A DNA stretch of 64,000 nt from Ianthella basta (taxonomy: Eukaryota > Porifera > Demospongiae > Verongiida > Ianthellidae). The stretch is taken from the NCBI GenBank assembly GCA_964019415.1, contig OZ025869.1, forward strand, positions 7,769,635 to 7,833,634. Reading direction: 5' to 3'. Within the stretch, counting starts at the first letter, position 1. Every line of letters starts with the position of its first letter. This document shows positions 22,611 through 63,250 of this stretch, piece after piece. The notes below the pieces were generated by a model. That model saw only the letters and a program-made list of their open reading frames with translations, was not told where the DNA came from and did no database searches. The translations under genes and the position numbers were made by a program.

Positions 22611-22892
22611 AGCACTGTGCTGATTAAAGAATTACCTTCCTTTCCTTACCACCCATACAACACACACACGCGTTATTCATCACTTGCAGCCTCACAGTTT
22701 GTCTGTCTTGAGCACCATCTTCTGTAAGGTGTCATCCTACACACATGTTCACAGGATTTATACTTGCACCATCGTTACCTTCAATTGGTTGATTTGACAC
22801 ACTATTGCTCAATATGTATGTAGGTGCATAATATGTTTGAACCTAAGCATACAGAAACGCAGGCAACGACAACACACAGAGCGCTGAGCTGT

Positions 22893-22945
22893 AGACAGTA
22901 GGCTGGTAAGCCAGTTTCAGCCTCTTTTGGTCTCATCAGTACAAC
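22893..22945 (-). ncRNA. Decayed hammerhead ribozyme copy
   Basis: On the minus strand: stem I GTTGTA, core CTGATGA, weak stem II GACC/GGCT, core GAAA, an irregular stem III (GGCT-TACC-AGCC plus extra bases), then CTGTC and stem I return TACAGC. Both cores and stem I are intact. Stems II and III have mismatches, so activity is doubtful. Confidence 0.5.
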
Positions 22946-26734: not shown

Positions 26735-28863
26735 CGTACACACCGAACTCGTGCGAACTTGTGGCAAGATACTAGTTCATATGGTGCTCGGTTGCTCAAG
26801 CAAGTTCGGAAAGGTCGAATCACACCGAACTCATGCGAGCTTGTGGCAAGATACTAGTTCATATAGTGCTCTGTTGCTCAAGCAGGTTCGGTAGTGTCGA
26901 ACCACACCGAAGTCATGCCAACTTGTGGCAAGATACTAGTTCATATAGTGCTCTGTTGCTCAAGCAGGTTCGGTAGTGTCGAACCACACCGAACTCATGC
27001 GAGCTTGTGGCAAGATACTTGTTCATATAGTGCTCTGTTGCTCAAGCAGGTTTGGTAGGGTAGAACCACACCGAACTCAAGCCAGCTTGTGGCAAGATAC
27101 TTGTTCATATAGTGCTCTGTTGCTCAAGCAAGTTCGGAAAGGTCGAATCACACCGAACTCCTGCGAGCTTGTTGCAAGATACTAGTTCATATAGTGCTCT
27201 GTTGCTCAAGCAGGTTCGGTAGGGTCGAACCACACCAAACTCATGCCAGCTTGTGGCAAGATACTTGTTCATATAGTGCTCTGTTGCTCAAGCAGGTTCG
27301 GTAGGGTCGAACTACACCTAACTCAAGCCAGCTTGTGGCAAGATACTAGTTCATATAGTGCTCTGTTGCTCAAGCAGGTTCGGTAGGGTTGAACCACACC
27401 GAACTCATGCGAGCTTGTGGCAAGATACTAGTTCATATAGTGCTCTGTTGCTCAAGCAGGTTCAGTAGGGTCGAACCACACCTAACTCATGCCAGCTTGT
27501 GGCAAGATACTAGTTCATATAGTGCTCTGTTGCTCAAGCAGATTCGTTAGGGTCGAACCACACCGAACTCATGCGAGCTTGTGGCAAGATACTAGTTCAT
27601 ATAGTGCTCTGTTGCTCAAGCAAGTTCGGAAAGGTTGAATCACATTGAACTCATGCAAGCTTGTGGCAAGATACTTGTTCATATAGTGCTCTGTTACTCA
27701 AGCAGGTTCGGTAGGGTCAAACCACACCAAACTCATGCGAGCTTGTGGCAAGATACTTGTTCATATAGTGCTCTGTTGCTCAAGCAGGTTCAGTAGGGTC
27801 GAACCACATCGAACTCATGCCAGCTTGTGGCAAGATACTAGTTCATATAGTGCTCTGTTACTCAAGCAGGTTCAGTAGGGTCGAACCACATGGAACTCAT
27901 GCCAGCTTGTGGCAAGATACTAGTTCATATAGTGCTCTGTTGCTCAAGCAGGTTTGGTAGGGTCGAACCACACCAAACTCATGCCAGCTTGTGGCAAGAT
28001 ACTAGTTCATATAGTGCTCTGTTGCTCAAGGAGATTCGGTAGGGTCGAACCACACTGAACTCATGCGAGCTTGTGGCAAGATACTTGTTCATATAGTGCT
28101 CTGTTACTCAAGCAGGTTCAGTAGGGTCAAACCACACCTAACTCAAGCCAGCTTGTGGCAAGATACTAGTTCATATAGTGCTCTGTTGCTCAAGCAGGTT
28201 CTGTAGGGTTGAACCACACCAAACTCATGCGAGCTTGTGGCAAGATACTTGTTCATATAGTGCTCTGTTGCTCAAGCAGGTTCAGTAGGGTCGAACCACA
28301 CCTAACTCATGCCAGCTTGTGGCAAGATACTAGTTCATATAGTGCTCTGTTGCTCAAGCAGATTCGTTAGGGTCGAACCACACCGAACTCATACGAGCTT
28401 GTGGCAAGATACTTGTTCATATAGTGCTCTGTTGCTCAAGCAAGTTCGGAAAGGTTGAATCACATTGAACTCATGCCAGCTTGTGGCAAGATACTTGTTC
28501 ATATAGTGCTCTGTTACTCAAGCAGGTTCGGTAGGGTCAAACCACACCAAACTCATGCGAGCTTGTGGCAAGATACTTGTTCATATAGTGCTCTGTTGCT
28601 CAAGCAGATTCGTTAGGGTCGAACCACACCGAACTCATACGAGCTTGTGGCAAGATACTTGTTCATATAGTGCTCTGTTGCTCAAGCAAGTTCGGAAAGG
28701 TTGAATCACATTGAACTCATGCCAGCTTGTGGCAAGATACTTGTTCATATAGTGCTCTGTTACTCAAGCAGGTTCGGTAGGGTCAAACCACACCAAACTC
28801 ATGCGAGCTTGTGGCAAGATACTTGTTCATATAGTGCTCTGTTGCTCAAGCAGGTTCGGTAGC
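26735..28863 (+). repeat. 82 bp satellite array, about 26 units
   Basis: The word gtggcaagatact recurs at an exact 82 bp period (for example 26761, 26843, 26925, 27007, 27089) to about 28863. Units differ at a few positions each, and some variants recur in the same order, suggesting higher-order duplication. Each unit carries a dyad, GTTCGGT...ACCGAAC, across the unit junction with TCGA between the arms. Diverged relatives occur at 37415-37470, 42545-42580, 43195-43565 and 46020-46700. Confidence 0.98.
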
Positions 28864-29024: not shown

Positions 29025-32000
29025 CCCTAATTCACATTTTAGCTTTACAAGAACTGCAGGAAGAACACCCTTAGAACATGTTACCCTGTTGCATTTGCCC
29101 TGTGATACTAATCGTATCTTCCTATTGTTGCTTGTTAACTTGCAAGAGTTGCAGGATGCAGCCTTTGGACATTTCCTCCCTCTGTACCAAGGCAGTTTGG
29201 TATTGGGCATTTGCTGGCTCACGTGCTTGTAGATGGCAAACAGTTGAGCTAGCAGAAGCCCAATACAAACTTGAGAGTTGTACGTAGTTTGCTGTAGTCA
29301 TTGGACATTTCTTCTGTACCAAGGCAATTAACTGGCTGAATACCTTGTTAGTTGCATTCCTACCTAACAGCTGTTCTTGTGGTTCAACAGTGGCCAGGTC
29401 ATCACCTAGGAGATGACCTGGTTCAAAGTTTGATTGTAAGGCTTCAGCCTAAAGGTCACCAGCTGGATTTTCCCCTTGACATGCATGCAATTGACAGTGT
29501 GTGAGGGGGGGTGTTAAGCTGACAGGATCCGTAAAATATCTCTCCATCTTTTCCAGCTCCTTACGCAAGGCCAAGTGCTCAAGGGCATTCACATTCAAAT
29601 AGTTCCTTAGGCGGCCTCCCCTGTCTTGCTGGGTCTGTTTTTGCTGGCATCTCGTAGTGGTAGTCACTGTCATCACTGCTGCCACCACTCACTGTGTGTG
29701 AAGGAGAGATGATACTGTTGCATTTGTGTATGTGTGTGTAATATACATATCACACTTGAAGGGGATGTATAGTAGAACGACGACAGACACTTAAGATACA
29801 CTACAATATGAAATGCTAAGTTACAGTAAATTATGACAGTGAATATGTATATGCATGTATAATGTACTTGCACTGTATATATACATATATACATAGATGT
29901 ACGTATGGTATGTATCTTGCCTCTACCTTCCCCTCTTCCTTCCTTTTTTCCTCCTTCCTCTTCTTCCCGTTCCCCCTCTTCCGCCTTTGTCCCTGCCTCA
30001 CCCCCTTCACGCTACCATAGTAGTGTGTATGATGATGGCTGCCCCACATAAAGTAGACAGACCCCTCAGGGTTGACCGCCCTCGGAGGAGGTGGCTGCCC
30101 CAAGGATGGCGCCTGTCCCCCTTTTGAGTTGGGGATGGGGCCTTGGTTCTTTCTACAGTGAAAACGTAAGACACTGTGTGTGTGTGTAGGTGTTTGCCAT
30201 GGCCAGCTGTGATGATCCTGAACATCTAGCTGGACCGATACTGCCGGAGCCACCCAGCTCACCATTGTGACCTCTGCCGGCTTGGCTACTGTTGCAACCA
30301 CGTACTCTTGCGAGACGACCCAGATCATCTGGAGGGTCACGAAGGAGCTACTTAGTAGACAGGCACTTCATTCAAGGACACCACCATCCAGGTAGCATTT
30401 GCTGTCTGGAGTCGTTGCAAAAGAAAAAACCTCCATGACCTCGTTAAGCATACTGCAAGCACTGCCAGCGAGTTTGTGGAGGTGACCAGTCGAATGCTGC
30501 ACACTGAGGGTGGTCTACAAGACATCAAAGACCAAGCTGATGCAAGCCATTGGCAAGGTTGCTGTCAAAGCAGTTTACTGCCCAGACAACGATGCCAGTA
30601 GACCAGCTGGTACTAGAGGCGTAAATCTTGGATGCCTGGAGCTGCTCGGCAGCTCTTAAGCACATTCAGTTCCTGTTTCTCCTTTCTGGGGCAGAAGAGG
30701 GATGGCGAAGTAAAGAGCTGGCACTGTAACTGAGGGGTATAATATGTGCAAGACAACAAAGGGCATGAACAACACATAGGGGACACTTGACACCAACTAT
30801 TGCACAAATTCACTATTGGTCTATCTCATTTTCCTTTCCCTCTCCCCCACTGTATTTTAATGCCCCCCACCCCACCTGTTTTCCTATGCTTTCCCCTCAC
30901 ACACCGTTTTCCTACTCCGTCTCCCCCCTCACACACCGTTTTCTAGCTCCCTCTCCCTACTCGCACACCGTTTTCTTACTCTGTCTTCTGTACTCGTCCA
31001 ATGGTTGCTGTCTCAGGCTCCCCTTGACGGTCCTGTACTGCTTGCATGTTCGTAAGAGGGGAGAGCGCAGAGACATTCATTAATAGCTGAAATAACGACT
31101 AAATAACTGTAGTATAGTGCAAACAACACAGACTATTCGTGTTCTGACTAACCTCTGCGTCAAACAGCAACCACCAATGGCAGCAACACACAACACCAGC
31201 CTGGTGCCATTTTAACATTGGTTTGGAATTTGATCAATAAGATGGCCGTCTCGTCTCCCTCCCAGGCCAGGGTGAGCTCGTCATTTTGCTCGCTGAAGCC
31301 CACCCTGCGAGCAACTAGGGATGCTATCAAGCTTTCGAGTGAGTCATAGTGAGTCTTCGATCGGTGTGAGTGCGCGTTGGGAGATGCTAAGCTTCATTTG
31401 TGGTCTGTTTGCTGCTAGGACTCCACCCCTCGGAGGTCTTTAGCTCTTATTTGTTTGCTGTTACATGTTGCACATCGCGCTATACGATCAATGCGTTTCT
31501 AGTAGTCTGCAAGTCCTGCTCGACCAAATTGGACTGGATTGAAACTTTGCGTGTGGACCATGTTCGCAGGACTGTCGCACGCTGAGCCTAGCATTTTGAG
31601 CTGTTCCTTTGCAGTGATGACATCTCAGATGTCGGTAGATGTTATATTCGTCGTCGTCAAGCTGGAATCAAGTCACGCTGTGCTATAGTCACTCAAACTT
31701 TGCCTTTTTCTTAGCCACTCAATCTTTTTCTTAGCATTCTCAATACCCTAACTTGCATATGGTTACACCAAAGGTTACCTTGGTAACCAAACCCCTGCCA
31801 GTACAGTACATCAGAACATCACTGATGAGTATGCAGCTCGGTCGAATAGATTTTTGCAGCTCCCGGATTGTGCAATCGCATAAATGGCTGCAGCCCCATC
31901 TTCTTGCAAAATCGACATCGCCTGCCCGGTAAACGCAGGAAGGCTTCTGCACGAAATTGACTTCATTGGATAGTCATAGGATATCAGTATTGGTGTGTGA

Positions 32001-32160
32001 TGTTTTAGGCGCTTGGGATGCTTCATCGCCGTGCAACGCTAGGCTGTCTGCCTTGTCCCCTGTACATAAGGTATAGCGGGGTCAAGGGTCACATGGGTGC
32101 TGCTCCCATTCACTCTTGCCCACACCTACCCACCCACACATACATGTACACAATGCAGTA
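29025..32160. other. Gene-free region with pyrimidine-rich tracts
   Basis: No gene recognised. It holds a polypyrimidine tract (about 29925-29995) and a 3-copy repeat of about 31 bp around cacaccgttttc (30893-30990). An ATG with good context at 31242 (MAVSSPSQAR before GTGAGC) resembles a first exon, but no continuation is visible. A segment at about 31843-31925 recurs at about 35763-35845 (word gattgtgcaa...cataaatggctgcagcc). Confidence 0.4.
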
Positions 32161-32218
32161 ACTGCAGACGCCTTCAATAATGAAGCCGTTTCGCCCTTCT
32201 GGGGCTCATCAGTGCAGT
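32161..32218 (-). ncRNA. Hammerhead ribozyme, type I
   Basis: Reading the minus strand from 32218: stem I ACTGCA, core CTGATGA (32212-32206), stem II GCCC-CAGAA-GGGC, core GAAA (32192-32189), stem III CGGCTTC-ATTATT-GAAGGCG (6 of 7 pairs), then TC and stem I return TGCAGT. Cleavage is expected after position 32167 (GTC). Stem I is open, which makes it type I. All invariant bases are present. Confidence 0.85.
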
Positions 32219-32911
32219 GCTCAAGCAAATTCACAGCACACACATGCACAGTCACACGCACTCACCACTGGAGCACCTGCCCACACACCCACACTCCCTC
32301 AAGCTCTGGCAGACACAAACACCCAACCCACCTGAGCACCACTTCAAGCACCTGCACTCAACGACTGGAGCGCGTGCACAAACACACCAGTTCAAGTATG
32401 CAGCTCAAGTATGCAGCTGCTTACAACAGCTGTCCACAAAGCCCAGCAATTATGGGAAACATCAAACCAGGCACTTAATAGTAGCTTAGCTGTCACAGCA
32501 CACTGATTTGGGTGCATAAATACATAATAGTGAACACTGCAAAGGTGTATTAAGGACAGGTGCCGAGGTATTGTGCAATAATTTAGCATGCTCTGGAAAG
32601 TGCTCGTTTTTGCTTCTGCAGACTGGCTTTGCTTATCTTCTTTCTGACAGTAGATGAATGGTATATTGACGATTGTCTAGAAAATTGTGAAAGATGTGGA
32701 GAAGTCTTTACCCCAAAAGCTCCGCATTCTTGTACCTGTTTTTTGAACAAAAACAGAAAACGCACATAGGAAGGCTACTTCACCGGCATATCATTTTCGC
32801 ATTTGCCGCACTAACTCACTGCATTCTATCATCTGACCATAGTGCTTCTCTCTGCGATTCACCTACACCAAAGTATTGCCATTTTGGATCTAAATGGAAG
32901 TACTTTTCAAA

Positions 32912-33345
32912 TACAAAACATGTAACTTCACCTTCAGATTCTCTGGAAACAAGCCCCCTGGTCAAAATGCCTCATACATTACTTCCTACCGCTAGAGTTC
33001 GAACAGCTCCCTGCAAGGCCTTCCTCCTATGCGCACCAGGCACACTTCCGAAGAAAGCTACGTAGGACTAAAAGCCACCATTTCTACATACATTTTTCAT
33101 GTGACTGTGTATGTTAACTGTACATTACAGGTCACGCGAACAGGAAGTTTATTATATATTCGTTTACATAGCAGTCCGTCCAATTGTGCGGTTTTTGTAT
33201 ACCCACGATCATCCCGCAGTTAGGATACTGTTTCATCAGGCCATCTGCCCCTGCATACCAGATATTAATGCATCTTTGGCAGCCAATAATGGCTTTGCAA
33301 CACTTAGCTATTGTGTCATGGCAGTAATATTTTATAATTTCTGTC
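32912..33345. repeat. Second copy of the ~420 bp dispersed repeat
   Basis: Colinear with 20088-20505, including the words cctggtcaaaatgcctcat and gcccctgcataccagat. It differs by scattered substitutions and small indels. The bracketing 75 bp repeat is absent here. Confidence 0.8.
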
Positions 33346-34165
33346 ATGTAACAAGGGACATATAAATATAATGTACTAACAACATACATGACTGTGCATA
33401 CAAAGGTACATGTATATTCGGATGTGTATATGAAGCTCAGATTTCCACCACAAATTGCTGTGTGGGTGGGGGGGGGGGGGCATCCCCTCAACTTTCCTAG
33501 GCACCTCACTCTTAGACTTGCATTCTCTCTCTCAACGAAGTGTGCAGTTTTCTGAAGCCAGCATTCATAATAGCCACTTCCCTGAGCTATTTATAGTAGC
33601 ATACATCATTCCTCGTGACATCCCTACTAAATACCAGTGCAGACACCAGCAAGGCAGGTAACCATTCTGAAGAAATGTGAGTTGGCGTTCGATGTCACTG
33701 GCGTGTTGAGTGTGGTCATCTCCTTTGGCTGCACTGGTTCGAATGTGCAGTTGTGTGAGGTGTGTTCTGTAATGTCCATCACTGAAGTTTTTCCCCACCT
33801 CACTGTTGTGCTTCGTTGTGTTATCTGTCTTATGGAGCATGGTCTTCCCCATCCTCCTCAACCACCCAACACCACCGCACATCACACCAGAGGGAGTGGG
33901 AGGTAGTCTGCTGTACATAGTTCACATTTGGTGTGCCAATGGTAGTTGTGTACAGACTAGCTGGTCTAGGCCATCTCCCTGGTGTGTAGTGTCCTGTGAG
34001 GGGAGAGAGAGCATGTCCTCCAGGAAGACCCTCCTCTGTGCCCTTATTAGTTTGTGGGGGAGGAGGTGTTGTGTGTAGGGAGCTGTGTTAATGGGACTCG
34101 TAGCAAGAAGCACACACACCATTTCTCAATTACCCCTCCGAGGTGCGTAGTCGAGTAAGTGCTTC

Positions 34166-43194: not shown

Positions 43195-43565
43195 ACCACA
43201 CTGAACCTGCATGACCAACAGAGAACTACAATAGCAAGTCTCAGGCCACAAGCGCTCAAGAGTTGAGTAGGGTCGAACCACACTGAACTTAAGCAAGCGT
43301 GTAGCCTGATACACGCTCTTGTTGTGCTCTGTTACTCAAGCAGGTTTGGTAGGGCCAAATCATACCGAACTCATGTGAGCTTGTAGCCTGATACTTGCTC
43401 TTGGTGTGGTCTGTTGCTGAAGCAGGTTCAGTAGAGTCAACCACACCGAACATATGCTAGCTTGTGGCTTGATACTTGCTATTGTAGTTCTCTGCTGCTG
43501 AAGCAAGTTCAGTAGGGTAGTAGAACCACACCGAACTCATGCGAGCTTGTGGTCTGATACTTTCT
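43195..43565. repeat. Diverged 82 bp satellite relatives, 4-5 units
   Basis: The words ccacaccgaac, gcgagcttgtgg and ctctgttgctcaagcagg recur with an approximate 82 bp period and many substitutions. These are older than the main array. Confidence 0.8.
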
Positions 43566-45157
43566 CTTGCTGTGCTCTGCGACCATTGAACTGCTCACAC
43601 ATGGAGTGACACAGTAACAAGGATGGAGGACACACAGAGAGAGAACAGAACGGTTGGTCACCTGCCGAAAGATGGGACATCTCAACAGGTTGTTGAACAA
43701 AGATGAGACAATGACCATTGAAATGTTCACACACGCAGTGACAAAAAACAAAGATGGAATACTGACACAGAAAGTACAGTAAGCTTGAAGATAAGACATT
43801 GTGACAGGTTGAAACAGGAATCAAGCATGCGGTGGCACCACAAAGTATGTATAATGCGTTCTAGAGATATCATACCAGCACATTAAACAACCTGAAATGT
43901 GTATCAAACTAAATTTAGGCTCAACAGATAGCTAGCTAGCTACCTTTGACTAGCCTATTTGGCTGTAGCAAGATAAATACGCAATATAGCAAATGTCCTC
44001 TTGGAAACAAGTTACCTCCATATTATGCTGTGTCTTCCTGCTCCTCAGCCTCCTCCCCCCCCCCCCCCTCATTCTCTTCCTCTTAACACAGCAAAAAAAA
44101 CAAGTGGGTTGATGGCAGGCTAGTAGCAATCTCTGCATGTAATCATGTAGAGCATGTAATCTCCGAGTTGGTAGTGACTTTTGCATCATCTATGAAATGG
44201 ACATGGCATAGTCTCTTAGTGTCTGCTGATATCCGTCGGTTCAGGGGAGAAGTCTGCTTCGAGCTGAAGCGTCACTTACAATCCTCTATTTTCTTTTCAC
44301 ATGATTACACACAGTGACCTATCCTGAGGTATTCGAGCGAACTGTGAGAGCAAGTAACATACAATGATTTCTCATGAGTTTGGCTTGATTCAACTATAGC
44401 GAGCCTGCTTGAAACACCTAGCACTTAAGCAAGCAACATACAATGTATTCTCATGAGTTCGGAGTGGTATCATTAGAGAGAGCAAGTGACATACGATAAT
44501 TTCTCATGAGTTCTATGTGAATCAAGAACTCTGAACCTGCTTGGAACAACAGAACACTAGATAGAGCAAGTATCAGGCTACAACTTTGTATGAGCAGTAT
44601 GATCAAGGACCATAAGATGATCTCATGAAGATTATCTCATGAAGTTACTCCATATTCTGCTGTATCTCCTCCTGATCCTCAGCCTCCTTCTCTTCCTCCT
44701 AACACGGCAAAAAACAAGTGGGTTGATGGCAGGCAAGTAGCAATCTCTGCATGTAATGTAAAAGTATCAGGCCAAAAGCTCGCTTGAGTTCGGTGTAACC
44801 ATAAACACAAACTGACTATAAATTGCTTGACTGAAGGATATAAAGTTTGGTAACATAAATATGTAACAATAAAAGCTTAGTGTCGTTGGCAGTTTACTAT
44901 CTACCAGGCAGTGAACTTTGGTCACTAAAAAGATTAAGAAGAATACTGGAACCTATAGTAGCCTAAGTGCATGCAGTGGTAGCAACGAACAAGCAACAAC
45001 TGGACACACTCGTCTCTAATGACTAACGCTACACACACTACAAGCAGACTACAGACAATTCAGTCCATAAAATATGACAGTAAAAAGAATGCTTACTTGG
45101 TAGTGTCTGGTAGAGCTTCTGCAATAGGAAACTCCACTTCTTGGCTTGGATGTTGCT

Positions 45158-46019: not shown

Positions 46020-46700
46020 GTGAACTGTGAGAGCAAGTAACATACAATGATTTCTCATGAGTTCTACGTGCTTCAACCACTCTGAACCTGCTTGAACAAC
46101 AGAGCACTAGAATGAACAAGAATCAGGCGACAACATTGCATAAGTTGGGAGTGGTTCAACTATACTGAACCTGCTAGAAACACCTAGCACTTGAGAGAGC
46201 AAGTAACATATGATGCGTTCGGCATGGCTCAACCACTCCAAACTTGTTGAAACACCTAGCACTGATGACAGCAAATAACATACGATGATTTCTCATGAGT
46301 TTGGCGTGGTCCAACCACTTGCTCTTGTAGTGATCTGTTGCTCAAGCAGGTTCAGTAGGGTCGAACCACACCGAACCTGCTTGAGCAACAGAGCACAACA
46401 TGAGCAAGTATCAGGCCATACGCTCTCAAGTTTGGTAGGTTCATGCGAGCTTGTGGCCTAATACTTGTTCTTATTTTGCTCTGTTGCTCAAGCAGGTTCG
46501 GTAGCATCGAACCACAGTAAAGACCTGCAATAGAGCACAACAAGAACAAGTATCAGGCCATACGTTGTCATGGGTTCGACTTATAATAGCCTCCCATTTA
46601 TAGCAAGTATCAGGCCACAAGCTCGTATGAGTTCGGTGTGGTTCGACGATACCGAACCTGTTGAGCACCAGAGCACTACAAGAGCAAGTATCAGGCGCCA
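46020..46700. repeat. Scattered 82 bp satellite relatives in both orientations
   Basis: Repeated gaacctgcttgagcaacagag and its complement, with caagtatcaggcc words, in mixed orientation. At 46340-46400 two units meet head to head, giving an inverted repeat. Confidence 0.75.
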
Positions 46701-46799
46701 ACTTTTATGACATTGACTTTATATTCACATTAAGTTGCGTACCTTTGCCATGCGGCACAAAGCAATGAGTTCCGCTGCCTTGCCCTTCCTGCTTCTTAG

Positions 46800-47060
46800 A
46801 GGATGTGGAAGATGCTTCAGAGGTTCACTTTTCATTGGGTGACATCTTGGCCTTTGTCACAGGGTCATTGGCTATCCCACCAATGGGATTCTCACCCACA
46901 CCAGCGCTGGGATTTACATTGGAGGAGTGCCTTCCTTGTGCCTCAACCTGTGGAAATAGGCTCACGATTTTACATGATGTCTCAATGATGAACTATGCTA
47001 CCTTCAAGGATGCCTTCCTCTTATCTATCCAAGGATGTCGGGTTTGGCAAAGTCTAGACA
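46800..47060 (+). pseudogene. HECT ubiquitin-ligase C-lobe fragment
   Basis: Plus strand: GDILAFVTGSLAIPPMGFS, then LPCASTCGNRLTI and YATFKDAFLLSIQG. This is the end of a HECT domain, with the catalytic Cys in the ASTC motif. Near the end the frame slips (CRVWQSL in place of the usual GFG). An AG acceptor (tgcttcttag) lies just upstream at 46798. The larger N-lobe is absent, so this is a single exon or a relic of a duplicated or transposon-carried HECT gene. Confidence 0.6.
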
Positions 47061-47217
47061 ATAACATACAATATTTCTGCATGAATCTACTATTCTGCAT
47101 GAATCTACTATTCTACAAGTAAACTCTAATCGAGTCTGCTAAAATGACACATATTAGCTACTCCAGTCCCTCAATTTGTTAATTGTGTTTACTTTCTAGC
47201 TGTAAGGGTGCGTAAAA

Positions 47218-47290
47218 ATGTTTCCTTCAAAAACAAGGGCAGATGTAGGGATGGTGCAGTGTGTCTCTGAAGGGCATGGCAAACACAGGG
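47218..47290 (-). repeat. Inverted copy of 49596-49668
   Basis: About 73 bp shared in opposite orientation with 49596-49668 (word gtttccttcaaaaacaaggg). In both it could encode LPLFLKETF on the same element strand, so it may be an exon piece of a dispersed element. Confidence 0.7.
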
Positions 47291-47428
47291 TAGTTATAAC
47301 ATGAAACCTCCACTTTGGGTGAAAGGTGTGGATAAGCACTAAATTCTTGGCATTAACACATTTTAGGGCAGAGAGTCTGTGATGTGAGTATATGACATCA
47401 TGTCATGCACTTGCAAACCATAGGGTGT

Positions 47429-47495
47429 GCTGTACTGATGAGGGCAAATTAGCCCGAAACAGTGCTTGTACATTGAATACAGCACTGTCTGCAGC
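47429..47495 (+). ncRNA. Hammerhead ribozyme, type I
   Basis: Stem I GCTGTA (47429-47434), core CTGATGA (47435-47441), stem II GGGC-AAATTA-GCCC, core GAAA (47456-47459), stem III CAGTGCT / AGCACTG (7 of 7 pairs, 14-base loop), then TC and stem I return TGCAGC (47490-47495; one G-U pair). Cleavage is expected between 47489 and 47490. A CA-rich tract starts 16 bases downstream. Confidence 0.9.
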
Positions 47496-47875
47496 TCCCA
47501 CTCCAGATCCACACACACATACACACACACACACAAACATCTGAACAGCTCTACCGCTGGGTAAAATCACAAGTAGCCTGCTCTGGGACTTTTCGAAGAC
47601 ACTAGACTAGTTCCAACTATACTATACAAATAATAACAGAGGCTACTAATATGTATAACACCATGTGACAAGCCTAATGAGTAACAGTTACTGTTGCTAG
47701 ACTACTGCATGCATACACACTCACTCTTGTACAGCTTGTACTGCTGGTGTCACTTCTACTTGCAGCTGCGCATTCATTCTGCATGAGTAATGGAATATAC
47801 AATGAAGTATTTAAATGGAGGACTGAGATGAACACAGATGCATCACAGATTCATAATTATACGGAATATCTGTAT

Positions 47876-47877
<2 letters not shown>

Positions 47878-47917
<40 letters not shown>

Positions 47918-47971: not shown

Positions 47972-48034
47972 AACTGCAGACGACTACATAACCTGTAGTC
48001 GTTTCGGCCTTGTTTTGGCCTCATCAGTGCAGTT
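47972..48034 (-). ncRNA. Hammerhead ribozyme, type I, fully paired
   Basis: Reading the minus strand from 48034: stem I AACTGCA, core CTGATGA (48027-48021), stem II GGCC-AAAACAA-GGCC, core GAAA (48005-48002), stem III CGACTAC-AGGTTAT-GTAGTCG, then TC and stem I return TGCAGTT. All three stems are perfectly paired and every invariant base is present. Cleavage is expected between 47979 and 47978. Confidence 0.93.
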
Positions 48035-48235
48035 ATACCACAAACTAATTGCAAAAGACAATGGTTCAAATGTCTGTACTGCAAGGTTGAGTAACTTAAA
48101 TGACACACGGACACACATACACACAAATGGACGCATGCAAAATGTTACATGTCAGGGTCTCACAATGAACACAAATACATAATTTTACGAAATATCTGTA
48201 CACACACACAGAGTGTGCACAGATATGTAGTGGCA

Positions 48236-48655
48236 GTGCGTGGAGTGGGGCAGTGCCTTGAGTGGGGCAGTGCCTTGAGTGGGGCAGTACGTGGAGTGGG
48301 GCAGTGCGTGGAGTGGGGCAGTGCGTGCGTGGAGTGGGGCAGTGCCTTGAGTGGGGCAGTGCGTGGAGTGGGGCAGTGCGTGAAGTGGGGCAGTCCAGTA
48401 CGTGGAGTGGGGCAGTGCGTGCGTGGAATGGGGCAGTACGTGGAGTGGGGCAGTGCGTGGAGTGGGGCAGTGCGTGCGTGGAGTGGGGCAGTGCGTGGAG
48501 TGGAGCAGTGCGTGCGTGGAATGGGGCAGTACGGGGAGTGGGGCAGTGCGTGGAGTGGGGCAGTGCGTGGAGTGGGGCAGTGCGTGAAGTGGGGCAGTGC
48601 GTGAAGTGGGGCAGTGCGTGAAGTGGAGTGGGGCAGTACGTGGAGTGGGGCAGCG
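48236..48655 (+). repeat. 17 bp G-rich minisatellite, ~24 units
   Basis: Unit gcgtggagtggggcagt with variants (gccttgagtggggcagt, gcgtgaagtggggcagt). The period is 17 with a few 21 bp units. The G-rich strand has a GGGG block in nearly every unit. Every frame is open on both strands, so the long frames here are artefacts. Confidence 0.97.
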
Positions 48656-48685
48656 TGAAGTGACGCAATTTTAAACTCACAATAC

Positions 48686-51092: not shown

Positions 51093-52220
51093 TTAATTAT
51101 GAACGATGCAGTCATCACAACCATTGTTCAAGTGGTCCCCAACAATTCGAACAGCCAGAGAGTAGTGAGAACGTCCATGTTGATCAGAAAGGCTGAGTGG
51201 ATTGACACCATCCAGCTCATGTGCAAGGACATCACATGGTGTGAAAGAACATCTTGGCACTGAGACAGGTTCGTGACAAGCTTGCTGCAATCTTTCTGAA
51301 TCTGACCCACTGTCGCTCTCACTCTCCACTTCATCAATTTCCTGCAGCTGGGGAATCAAGCCACTGACAAGCATTTGATAAGGAGTCTGGTCTCTCTCTG
51401 TTGACATAGCATGATTGTTCCATCCTTCCATGAAAATTTTCAAACTGTCATTGATTCTGGGAATGAACACAAAGTGAAGGCAATAAATGTCTACTTCATT
51501 GAGATGGTCCAAGACTCCTTCAGTCTCCATTTCTCGGAAACGATTACCATAAACTACTACAACAGACTGGTGAACATCTCGCCACAGACATTCAATTCTC
51601 ATTATGAGCTTGAACTACCAACAATTATACAATTATCACTTCCGTGTGCCTCCATCATCATGCTCCACACCTCCATGTTCTCACCTCCATGATCTGATCT
51701 AACTTTTTTTGGAAGCCCATATGTCTCCACAGCAGATGAAAGAGCAGCTAGGACAGTAGCTGCTGTATTATTGCTGCTGCATCGTAAAAAGGTAATCAGT
51801 CGAGAATATCCATCGATACCCCCATGTGTGACTAATCTCCATTTGATTAATTTATGGTGCCCGTCTATGTGCCACACTTCATTTGGACCTTTTGCATGGT
51901 ATACCCTTCTCACAGCCAAACTTCTTCTTTCTGCTACTCACTCCAGATCAACATGGTGAATGCTCTCGCGTAACTTAGCACGCTGCACTCGAATGCCTTG
52001 CCTGAGCAGATGGCCAGCAACCATAATCTCTCCATCATTAGGATGTCCTTTCTTTATTCTTTGAATGATCACATCTAATTGTGCTTCAGTGACATCTGAA
52101 TACTTCTTCAAATCACCTGAATTGGGAAACGTTGCAATCTTGTTATAGAGGGTCCTTTGACTTATTCCCAAGACTTCAGCTACTTCACATCATCCATATC
52201 AACTTCAATCAATGGTCTTC
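51093..52220 (-). mobile_element. Integrase-core fossil (rve-type, transposon/virus-like origin)
   Basis: The minus strand holds, in order, a helix-turn-helix region (about 52170-51940), a DDE-type integrase catalytic core (about 51920-51600) and a C-terminal region (about 51600-51093). The family is the integrase-core group that is multicopy in many invertebrates and fish. Its ties to retroelement, Ginger or Polinton integrases cannot be decided here. It appears broken in about two places and is treated as a fossil of moderate age. No terminal repeats were found. Confidence 0.7.
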
Positions 52221-60348: not shown

Positions 60349-63250
60349 CACCAAACACCAATCTTTCTCCCATGTATGTTTGTGCCTGCATACGTACATA
60401 CATGTGCATGGCCAACTTGAACTCTTATGATTTACCTATTTTCTGTCGCATGTGCATGATTTTTTTGTTGTTTTTTTTGTTTTTTTTTGTTTTTGTTTCC
60501 TTCTACTTCAGACGTCATAGCTATACTGTGCATGCTCGTCTTCAGAACATTTAGGCAGTGCTATGTACGCCTGCATGTCACCACTCTTCATATTTTTTGT
60601 TACTTTGAAATGTATGCATGTTTTCTTCACCAGTCTTTGGTGCTGGTTTTTTGCTCAATAATGATTGGTGACATTTGAAACAGAAATGCCCAAAATAGAT
60701 ATCTGATGTTACTAAGTATCCTTATAAGGAAGCCACGTGATACAAAAGAGCGCACTGGTTCAAACTCAGCGACTTGCATCCGATGACTGCTGTCACTAGC
60801 AGCCGCGAACAAAGATCGAGGAGGAAACAATCTTTGCTGCGAGTCGTTTGGATAATGGGCTTGCAATAGCAACAACGAACATTTTCCTGATGTGGACAGT
60901 GGAACAGATGATGAACCTCTGAGATCTGAGAGAACCTTGATGCTCCGGGCCAAGAAGTAAAATGCATTCCCTATGGCAACTTTCAGGACAAATGGTATAC
61001 TGGAATCTGGCTTCAAAGTGACCAGGTCTTGCATCTTGGCTTTTATTTCTGAAAGGGTTTCTCCTATATCTTTCAATTTCTCAAGCACTGGTTCCATTGG
61101 CCACATGCTTTTTTTTTTTTACACATCCTCGCTTATGCTTCAACAGTGGGTTGACGTGTTTGCTGAGGGCACCTTCAGAAACAGCAAATACCTCTTGGCT
61201 TGGAACTTTTGGAACTTCAAACCTTGGGTTGCAAGGGTGTCAGGAATTTGTAATTCATCAGCTGTGATGAGTGAAGAATCTTCACCACACTCGCGCTGCA
61301 CAATTGACAGAATATAATGTACTAAGTCTGCACGGGTCACAGGTATAGGTACAATGTGGACCTACTACTTGTAGGAGAATGCAGTGCTGACATTCTGCAG
61401 TCCATGCACACACCATAACAACTTCAAACAATAGTATAATATACATGCATGACTGTATATTCCATTATCCCTCTAGTGACGGAATGTCTCACAGTGGTGT
61501 ATTCATTACTTGCATGTCTGAAATTGAAAGAGTCAAAGTTGAAGGAGGAGTGGACTTCTTCCAGACAGTCAAGGCAGCAAGAGCACAAGGAGCACAAATG
61601 GTCAATACCAGTGTGAGTTAGACTGTAAAAGTGGCAATATTTCAAGCACAGAAGTAGTATAGTATACTGTGTGAATCAACAAGCATATAAAGCCTTGCTT
61701 TGTATATAGAATGGGATCACAGCCATGCATACAATTTGTTGGGTATATGCGTTTTGAAGCTAAAAGATCGAACACACAAAATTGGAACTGGTCAAGATGC
61801 CTGCTGCATATGTCATGCTTCCACTGCATTATTGTTCTTATGTGTTCACTTGCTTCTGTTCAGAATTAGTACAAAATGTGCTTTGAGATCCTCCAGTCCT
61901 ATTTGGACTTATTTGATACTTGCGCTAACTTCAAGGCTGTTTGAGTGTGTGACTACCAATTTCATGAACTGTTTCATTTGAGTGCTAAAATAATATATGA
62001 AATATAATCATTTCAATAAATTATGGTAGTGCTTGGATTATTTAACCTTATCCTTCAAAATGGCAATCACTGTCACTCTTTAGACCTGTCCTTGTTGGTG
62101 ACTACAGATGAAGAAGAAACAGTCTCATATTGGGTTGCATACAAAGCAGTTGTAGGAACAAGGGTAACTGGAGTTGTCAATGGCACTTATACTATGTAAA
62201 AAGGTGGTAAACAAGAATAACAATCCCAAGAATTCGTGAAATCTCTGGAAACTTCATTACTGACCCATCCAAGACAATCACCATCAACCCTTTAGCGCCA
62301 AATGACACATTTGTGTCATAAAGCGCAATGTCATTAACACCAAATGACACATTTAGGTGACAGGTGTCGAAAAAGCCTTAAAAACCGTTGCATTCACTCT
62401 GGCCACAAGTCCAGGACACAGACAACTGTTTTGCAAGACGTGTACCTATAACGGAGCCTTCTCTCAGCGAGCCAACCTTGTCTCCTGGTCGTGCAAGCTG
62501 CATACAAAGAGCTGCTTTAGTCTGAGCAGAATTACACCTTGTCTTTCTCATCCGTAGTTGAAGCCCAAGAACGCACGCTGCATAACAAATCGGTGAATGA
62601 CAGTAACTGCATCTTTCTGTGGTACTGTGCCAGCAGTACATCTACATTGTCACGTTTCAGGGTCGAGTACAAGCTTGGAGAGTAGCAACGTGCGATGTCT
62701 TGCCGAGTGGCATCACACACTAACGCGCACTATAAAATGTACAGAATCAGTAAAAGTTTTCTACAAAAATGAAAAGGACAGAAACAAGTAAAGGTTGTTA
62801 CACAGTGGAACATTAACCATTGTCTCTATATTCAAGGGTGTAGGACTACAAGGTTCAGCATTCTTGCATATAGGGACCATGTTTAATGCTCCACTGTATA
62901 ACAACAGCCTTTACATGTCTCTGTCCTTTTAATGCCATTCCTACATCTTTAATAATTTTGTAGAAAATTATTGTCATGCATCCGTGCCTGCAAAGGACCG
63001 TACAGCAATAGTAGCTACGTATCATTGGATTAATTGATGTTGTCATTTTTCAATATCATAAAGTTGATGTCGAAGTTTTCATAGCTCAAGTTTTTCTATT
63101 TTATCCTTCCTCAGCTTGAATCTTGTCATGACGCTTCTGGGCACCCAACTCCATTCAGAACCAGACAAGTATCTGGCAGGGATATCTTCTGGCTGTGTCT
63201 CAATGCTAAGACTCCATATTTCCTAATATATATATATATATATATAGGTA
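60349..63250. other. Gene-poor stretch with an unassigned minus-strand frame
   Basis: A T-rich tract (about 60455-60500) follows the LINE. Minus 61340-61140 and 61106-60627 hold coding-like sequence (MTRADLVHYILSIVQREC, EPVLEKLKDIGETLSEIKAK) in two frames, of no family I recognise. At 62285-62360 the word ccaaatgacacattt occurs twice with a near-palindrome, aaatgacacatttgtgtcat. A (TA)n tract is at about 63224-63246. Confidence 0.35.

Follow-up and report, generated by a model that had tools for sequence, protein, structure and literature searches.

A type I hammerhead ribozyme motif lies on the minus strand at positions 47972-48034 of the window, by which we mean the whole stretch of 64,000 nucleotides of Ianthella basta DNA analysed here. 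Judged by its motif it is a genuine hammerhead that is predicted to cleave, and it probably belongs, as an old component, to a non-autonomous DNA transposon of the CACAGGG family, which has short terminal inverted repeats (TIRs), and not to a retrozyme or a Penelope element. Genomic hammerheads have been tied to retrotransposons and circular RNAs in the portions available of two earlier papers (PMC6155905, PMC7229834), and no description of hammerheads in DNA transposons was found among the titles and abstract openings that searches of open-licence literature listed. The features discussed below are collected in Table 1.

Table 1. Hammerheads, carrier element and repeats in the window.
Feature	Position	Strand	Basis
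Type I hammerhead ribozyme (main finding)	47972..48034	-	motif reading, fold, strict descriptor, covariance model
Stem I 5' side, AACTGCA	48034-48028	-	
Core CTGATGA	48027-48021	-	
Stem II and loop, GGCC-AAAACAA-GGCC	48020-48006	-	
Core GAA	48005-48003	-	
Stem III, ACGACTACA-GGTTA-TGTAGTCGT	48002-47980	-	
C17	47979	-	
Stem I 3' side, TGCAGTT	47978-47972	-	
Partner type I hammerhead in facing orientation; cleavage predicted at 47489/47490	47429..47495	+	64.0 bits, E 1.5e-17
Third hammerhead, stem III with a single G.G mismatch	32161..32218	-	strict descriptor; 62.5 bits with own model, which includes L038
Decayed fourth hammerhead	22888..22945	-	37.4 bits, E 3.5e-9 (own model)
Left terminal inverted repeat of carrier, CACAGGGTAGTTATAAC...	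47284..47308	+	identical 17-mer at ends of family copies
Left subterminal region with plus-strand hammerhead	47285..47505	+	homologous to L020, L043, partly L046
Array of ~17-bp repeats, resembling array inside ribozyme-free L046	48232..48662	+	self-repeats; 61-67% to L046 450-732, repetitive, weak
52-nt direct repeat	left 47833..47884, right 48161-48210	+	82.7%, E 1.3e-9, spacing 328 bp

The ribozyme has an intact core, a GUC site and stems of 7, 4 and 9 bp. Both conserved cores, the GTC triplet and a cleavage site between 47979 and 47978 had been named in the initial annotation, and all of them are found as claimed when the minus strand is read, with cleavage predicted at that position. Its lengths for the first two stems also stand, but the third stem, given there as 7 bp, is 9 bp when A15.1-U16.1 and the adjoining C-G pair are included. 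Folded on their own, the 63 nt have a minimum free energy (MFE) structure identical to the hammerhead (-25.4 kcal/mol, z -4.8), and none of 200 shuffles equalled it. When 20 nt were added on each side, the MFE structure was a competing fold in which stem I is broken, and 20 of 200 shuffles folded equally well; the flanked MFE fold breaks stem I also in the minus-strand hammerhead of L020, a related element discussed below. As regards a loop 1-loop 2 tertiary contact, an outer stem I helix is clear in L019 and not clear in the 47972-48034 copy.

A strict type I descriptor detected three motifs in the window, compared with a mean of 0.03 and a maximum of 1 in 60 dinucleotide shuffles, while the loose hammerhead core alone was present on average 3.1 times per shuffled window. 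Rfam models searched over the whole window gave no match at the gathering threshold. In a 201-base stretch RAGATH-1-hammerhead, the best of them, scored 32.1 bits in the correct register (cut-off 56.3, E 6e-4), and Hammerhead_3 scored 27.2 bits (cut-off 48.5) at 47996-48050 in another arrangement that gives no support for the hammerhead. Because the Rfam matches stayed under their cut-offs, we built a covariance model from eight hammerheads that lie elsewhere in this genome, outside the window, though some are related to those within it. With this model 47973-48033 on the minus strand scored 63.7 bits (E 1.8e-17). The Rfam covariance search proposed in the initial annotation thus stayed below every cut-off, but the type I assignment itself was borne out by the core, the stems and the model of our own.

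These results also bear on chance resemblance, which had been called very unlikely from the outset. A loose core does arise by chance and the Rfam scores do fall short of their cut-offs; against this stand the count of complete motifs, the E value of our model and a genome-wide search with the strict pattern for the class of this ribozyme (looped stem III, TGCA-type stem I), which returned 154 + 171 = 325 copies and 0 + 0 in the control. On these three grounds we count chance as already refuted and give it a negligible probability.

The third hammerhead of the window has a different origin. Its surroundings match the subtelomeric locus L038 at 93% over 160 columns, and the pieces 31206-31738 and 31833-32109 match as well, so that by homology it is a relic of a different, subtelomeric element of the L038 type, spanning 31206-32292. 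Hammerheads spaced by 150 bp (three plus one) recur close to contig ends, in L038 (C4:252000-261900), at 4-40 kb and 15.75 Mb of contig C2 and at 13.11-13.14 Mb of C3. The L038 unit measures 8.8 kb, its two ends are identical over 1,076 bp, and its minus-strand ORFs are without family match. An rDNA spacer was considered as the home of the subtelomeric cluster and rejected, since every Rfam family stayed under its cut-off when L038 was searched; the tyrosine-recombinase look of one L038 ORF, noted by eye, was likewise dropped when Pfam returned nothing.

When the genome was searched with the 231-bp flank of the 47972-48034 hammerhead, the flank matched itself alone, and the family was therefore traced through the partner hammerhead on the plus strand and the element end. 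The 17-mer of this end is found at both ends of L020 (4161-6494), of a copy on contig C3 (L045 and L043) and of L046. It occurs exactly 65 + 68 times in the genome (209 Mb, 96 contigs), making 133 ends, compared with 0 in the reversed control. The left end in the window is identical to the right end of L046 over 26 bp, and the subterminal region of about 220 bp matches L020 at 66.5% (278 columns), L043 at 67% (275 columns) and, in its first 117 columns, L046 at 82%. L020, on contig C1, and the C3 copy are 91-95% alike and sharply bounded, with CACAGGGTAGTTATAACTGGAA in opposite orientation at the two ends, which lie 2.2-2.3 kb from each other. The complete listing for C1-C3 contains 57 CACAGGG ends, with 19 inward-facing neighbour pairs closer than 10 kb and no outward-facing ones; 14 of the 19 span 1.36-1.46 kb, and CACAGGG copies of 3.5-7.9 kb also occur. 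The flanking dinucleotides are AT, TG and TG at L020, the C3 copy and L046, respectively, which by eye is an apparent 2-bp duplication in all three copies. With inverted ends that pair inward and many dispersed copies, the CACAGGG family is DNA-transposon-like as far as its sequence tells.

The copy in the window was seen by its left end alone, and a search for its right end found none. The array at 48232-48662 is taken as still lying inside the element. As transposase of this family, DDE_Tnp_4 was the candidate compared by position, and it was rejected, since the scored positions (150 of 335 candidates) all lay outside the longer listed CACAGGG copies. Within 400 bp of an end, a strict hammerhead was present at 3 of the 57 ends on C1-C3, and L046, a 1.4-kb copy and the sole one of that size read, carries none. 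We also noticed an 81-bp inverted repeat (47204-47284/49588-49668, 96% complementary) whose left arm stops within one base of the CACAGGG start; long inverted repeats were considered as the home of the window pair, this one probably being another repeat.

A homologous counterpart of the ribozyme pair is in L020. The two elements are collinear through both hammerheads, which follow in the same order, so that the 47972-48034 ribozyme occupies the place of the second, inverted hammerhead of L020; both L020 hammerheads are in the left third of the element. The plus-strand ribozymes agree at 59 of 64 positions and the DNA from the element end to this ribozyme at 87 of 123, whereas the DNA between the ribozymes agrees at 200 of 397, and just 42 of 55 positions match between the two minus-strand hammerheads. 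Among six hammerheads (three of them from the window) 95.6% of the stem cells pair, a value that none of 500 shuffles reached, and 10 of 20 pairs have changed on both sides, as high as in one of 500 shuffles. Eight hammerheads from outside the window gave 7 of 16 pairs changed on both sides (0 of 500 shuffles as high). The measure of further pair types did not rise above shuffles in either set (170 of 500 for the six, 68 of 500 for the eight). The sequence comparison thus shows a hammerhead structure that has been retained while its sequence changed. For the carrier, the observations in hand are the motif, the pair, the left element end and a collinear homologous copy.

A second feature of the locus points in another direction. 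A 52-nt direct repeat brackets the minus-strand hammerhead. Such a trace could remain from a retrozyme-like insertion whose second unit was incomplete, and the ribozyme may therefore descend from an insertion of this kind. Around the minus-strand hammerhead of L020 there is no comparable bracket, and between 45000 and 52000 neither a second hammerhead on the minus strand nor a repeat containing the ribozyme was found. Because of the direct repeat we lowered our confidence in the ribozyme as a transposon part from fairly high to moderate, and raised that in the alternative, in which hammerheads are insertions of retrozymes (repeats derived from circular RNA) and the transposons are passive carriers. 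We consider this alternative possible but rather unlikely. The 328-bp spacing is inside the retrozyme size range, a retrozyme-like family is present in the genome, direct hammerheads are found 461 bp apart in each inverted repeat of the transposon L039 and at 150-bp spacing in L038, and few CACAGGG ends have hammerheads. However, the L020 pair has the same order without the bracket, the structure has been held by paired changes, and 18 of 24 integrase loci (see below) share the position and orientation of their hammerhead. Retrozyme insertion may thus be the origin of these ribozymes rather than the whole story.

The genome contains further classes of hammerheads. The loose core pattern gave 3369 + 3594 matches genome-wide, compared with 1066 + 1027 for the reversed control. 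A form with palindromic stem III is present in 165 + 155 exact copies, and where close neighbours on C1-C3 share a strand, the spacing is 368-374 bp in all eight cases typed; from these sequences it is a candidate retrozyme-like class. A minimal form, GAAACGTC, is present in 172 + 167 exact copies and is a candidate Penelope-like class by the same kind of evidence. One pair of this form flanks a GIY-YIG ORF (24.8 bits) in L015, and its neighbours closer than 5 kb on C1-C3 are oriented outward in 16 cases, inward in one and on the same strand in four.

That the ribozyme itself belongs to a Penelope-like element or its non-autonomous retrozyme appears very improbable. Type I hammerheads are known from such elements in the parts consulted of PMC7229834 and PMC11167929, and the L015 pair places the minimal form beside an ORF of the expected kind. 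Yet the ribozyme is a single motif on its strand with a looped stem III, and the left end is a paired TIR; moreover, the minimal-form neighbours mostly face outward whereas the window pair faces inward. No reverse transcriptase or GIY-YIG domain was found in the 18 window ORFs scanned with Pfam (of 59 of at least 110 aa). The initial annotation had referred to animal retrozymes and Penelope-like elements as homes of such hammerheads. This is true in general, with candidates for both in this genome, but it fits this copy poorly, which by its 9-bp looped stem III, its single occurrence on the strand and its TIR element departs from both forms; that interpretation as a whole is therefore partly supported.

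Transposons with an integrase-like core give a broader basis for hammerheads as transposon parts. L039, L040 and L041 were found through like hammerheads several kb apart. They have inverted repeats of at least 1,952 bp (99.9%), 787 bp (84%) and 911 bp (93%), respectively, with inward-facing hammerheads, and their exons are homologous to one another. The residues D, D and E of an integrase core are present in all three by eye, and L040 matches the Pfam family rva_4 at 28.3 bits (cut-off 26), an integrase-like DDE core; a weak HTH_21 match was also obtained, and a RING-like gene was named by eye. At 1e-3 Pfam returned nothing for ten of ten element ORFs, the integrase and HTH matches being obtained at a laxer cut-off in exons other than those ten. 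One integrase exon used as a query gave 25 matches, corresponding to 24 loci. On their 3' side, eighteen of these have a hammerhead in antisense orientation within 3 kb and six have none; 11 are bracketed on both sides by inward-facing hammerheads, and conversely 32 of 42 hammerheads of the integrase-linked pattern have such an exon no more than 8 kb away. With the strict pattern on C1-C3, 7 of 13 integrase loci have a hammerhead within 2.5 kb, whereas random placement averaged 0.125 and none of 5000 draws reached the observed count. In five hammerhead pairs, on C2, C3, C6, C14 and C15, the start-to-start distance is 7,247 bp; this identical spacing suggests recent movement, so that transcripts may still exist. 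By their positions, the hammerheads clearly appear to travel with the element in these integrase transposons. Each inverted repeat of L039 contains two direct hammerheads, at 102-185 and 563-617 on the left and in mirror image at the right end, and in both the first stem II pair is mismatched by eye. By analogy with a retrozyme dimer, the two could release a small RNA.

The window itself contains broken integrase ORFs at 51093-51937 on the minus strand (rva_4, E 1.9e-39 and 1e-25), which by these matches are remains of a further transposon lying 3 kb past the hammerhead pair. At 33135-33590 and 61143-61361, both on the minus strand, there are short protein-level similarities to two genes of the integrase transposons, the RING-like one and the second; Pfam returned nothing for 33132-33590. 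A tandem array with units of about 82 bp at 26739-28862 is related to 43254-43579 and to the repeats at 46053-46696.

The neighbourhood also bears on whether the host has domesticated the ribozyme, an idea put forward for amniote intronic hammerheads in the available sections of PMC6155905. The flank is unique, the stems are perfect inside a decayed element, and an ORF on the plus strand at 46769-47122 that ends 160 bp left of the element resembles HECT ubiquitin ligases just under the cut-off (22.5 against 23.9 bits), so that a host gene may be near. Nevertheless, no transcript or intron is known at the locus, and we regard domestication as highly unlikely.

If the ribozyme is indeed part of the CACAGGG transposon, the pair suggests how it would act. 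Since one hammerhead lies on each strand and each would form in RNA of one direction only, RNA of either direction carries one ribozyme, and a single cut is predicted in each: about 200 nt inward from the left end in RNA running rightward, and in the last part of RNA running leftward. Cutting would leave a downstream piece that lacks a cap and starts with a 5'-OH. The most likely purpose, we infer, is breaking read-through transcripts that start at host promoters and run into the element. For L039-L041 a cut is predicted within whichever inverted repeat an incoming transcript reaches first, and in this long-repeat family the cut could in addition shorten or reduce hairpin RNA. In the case of one Penelope element tested in vitro, insertion did not need hammerhead activity, according to the portion seen of PMC11167929.

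Taken together, we find it reasonably likely that hammerheads are working parts of DNA transposons: an integrase family would carry inward-facing ribozymes in both inverted repeats and move along with them, some members of the apparently distinct window family would keep a folded facing pair, and read-through or hairpin RNA would be cut, with self-cleavage serving outside retroelements and circular RNAs. If true, position-fixed hammerheads in DDE integrase elements would separate self-cleavage from reverse transcription, and the use of ribozymes by DNA transposons against read-through and double-stranded RNA is offered as a testable idea.

Several known systems share some of these features. 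Schistosoma W-elements, as far as covered by the sections available of PMC8490949, resemble our case in having hammerheads in mobile satellite-like repeats, with three of the candidates tested there cleaving; they differ in their extremely short stem III and in that no complete transposase ORF was found there. Penelope-like elements and Terminons (parts of PMC6431247 and PMC11167929) likewise have type I ribozymes in or near the terminal repeats of a mobile element. These are, however, retroelements with minimal hammerheads, whereas here stem III is looped and the elements contain DDE integrase exons (L039-L041) or no gene that was found (CACAGGG family). The IS3EU and GingerRoot DNA transposons share with L039-L041 the integrase-like DDE core (Pfam rva_4), and in the main text of their description, as available (PMC10045372), the words hammerhead and ribozyme are absent. 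They have TA..TA ends and 6-bp duplications. The ends of the CACAGGG family are different, and its duplications are apparently 2 bp long. Finally, the animal non-LTR retrozymes, as described in the accessible part of PMC7229834, have the same type I topology, core and GUC, and similarly thousands of motifs in several sequence families per animal genome. Retrozyme hammerheads lie within direct tandem repeats, from which circular RNAs of about 170-400 nt arise, whereas the ribozyme described here occurs once on its strand, belongs to a facing pair and is carried by a TIR element, and its likeness to a retrozyme tandem is confined to the bracket at 328 bp.
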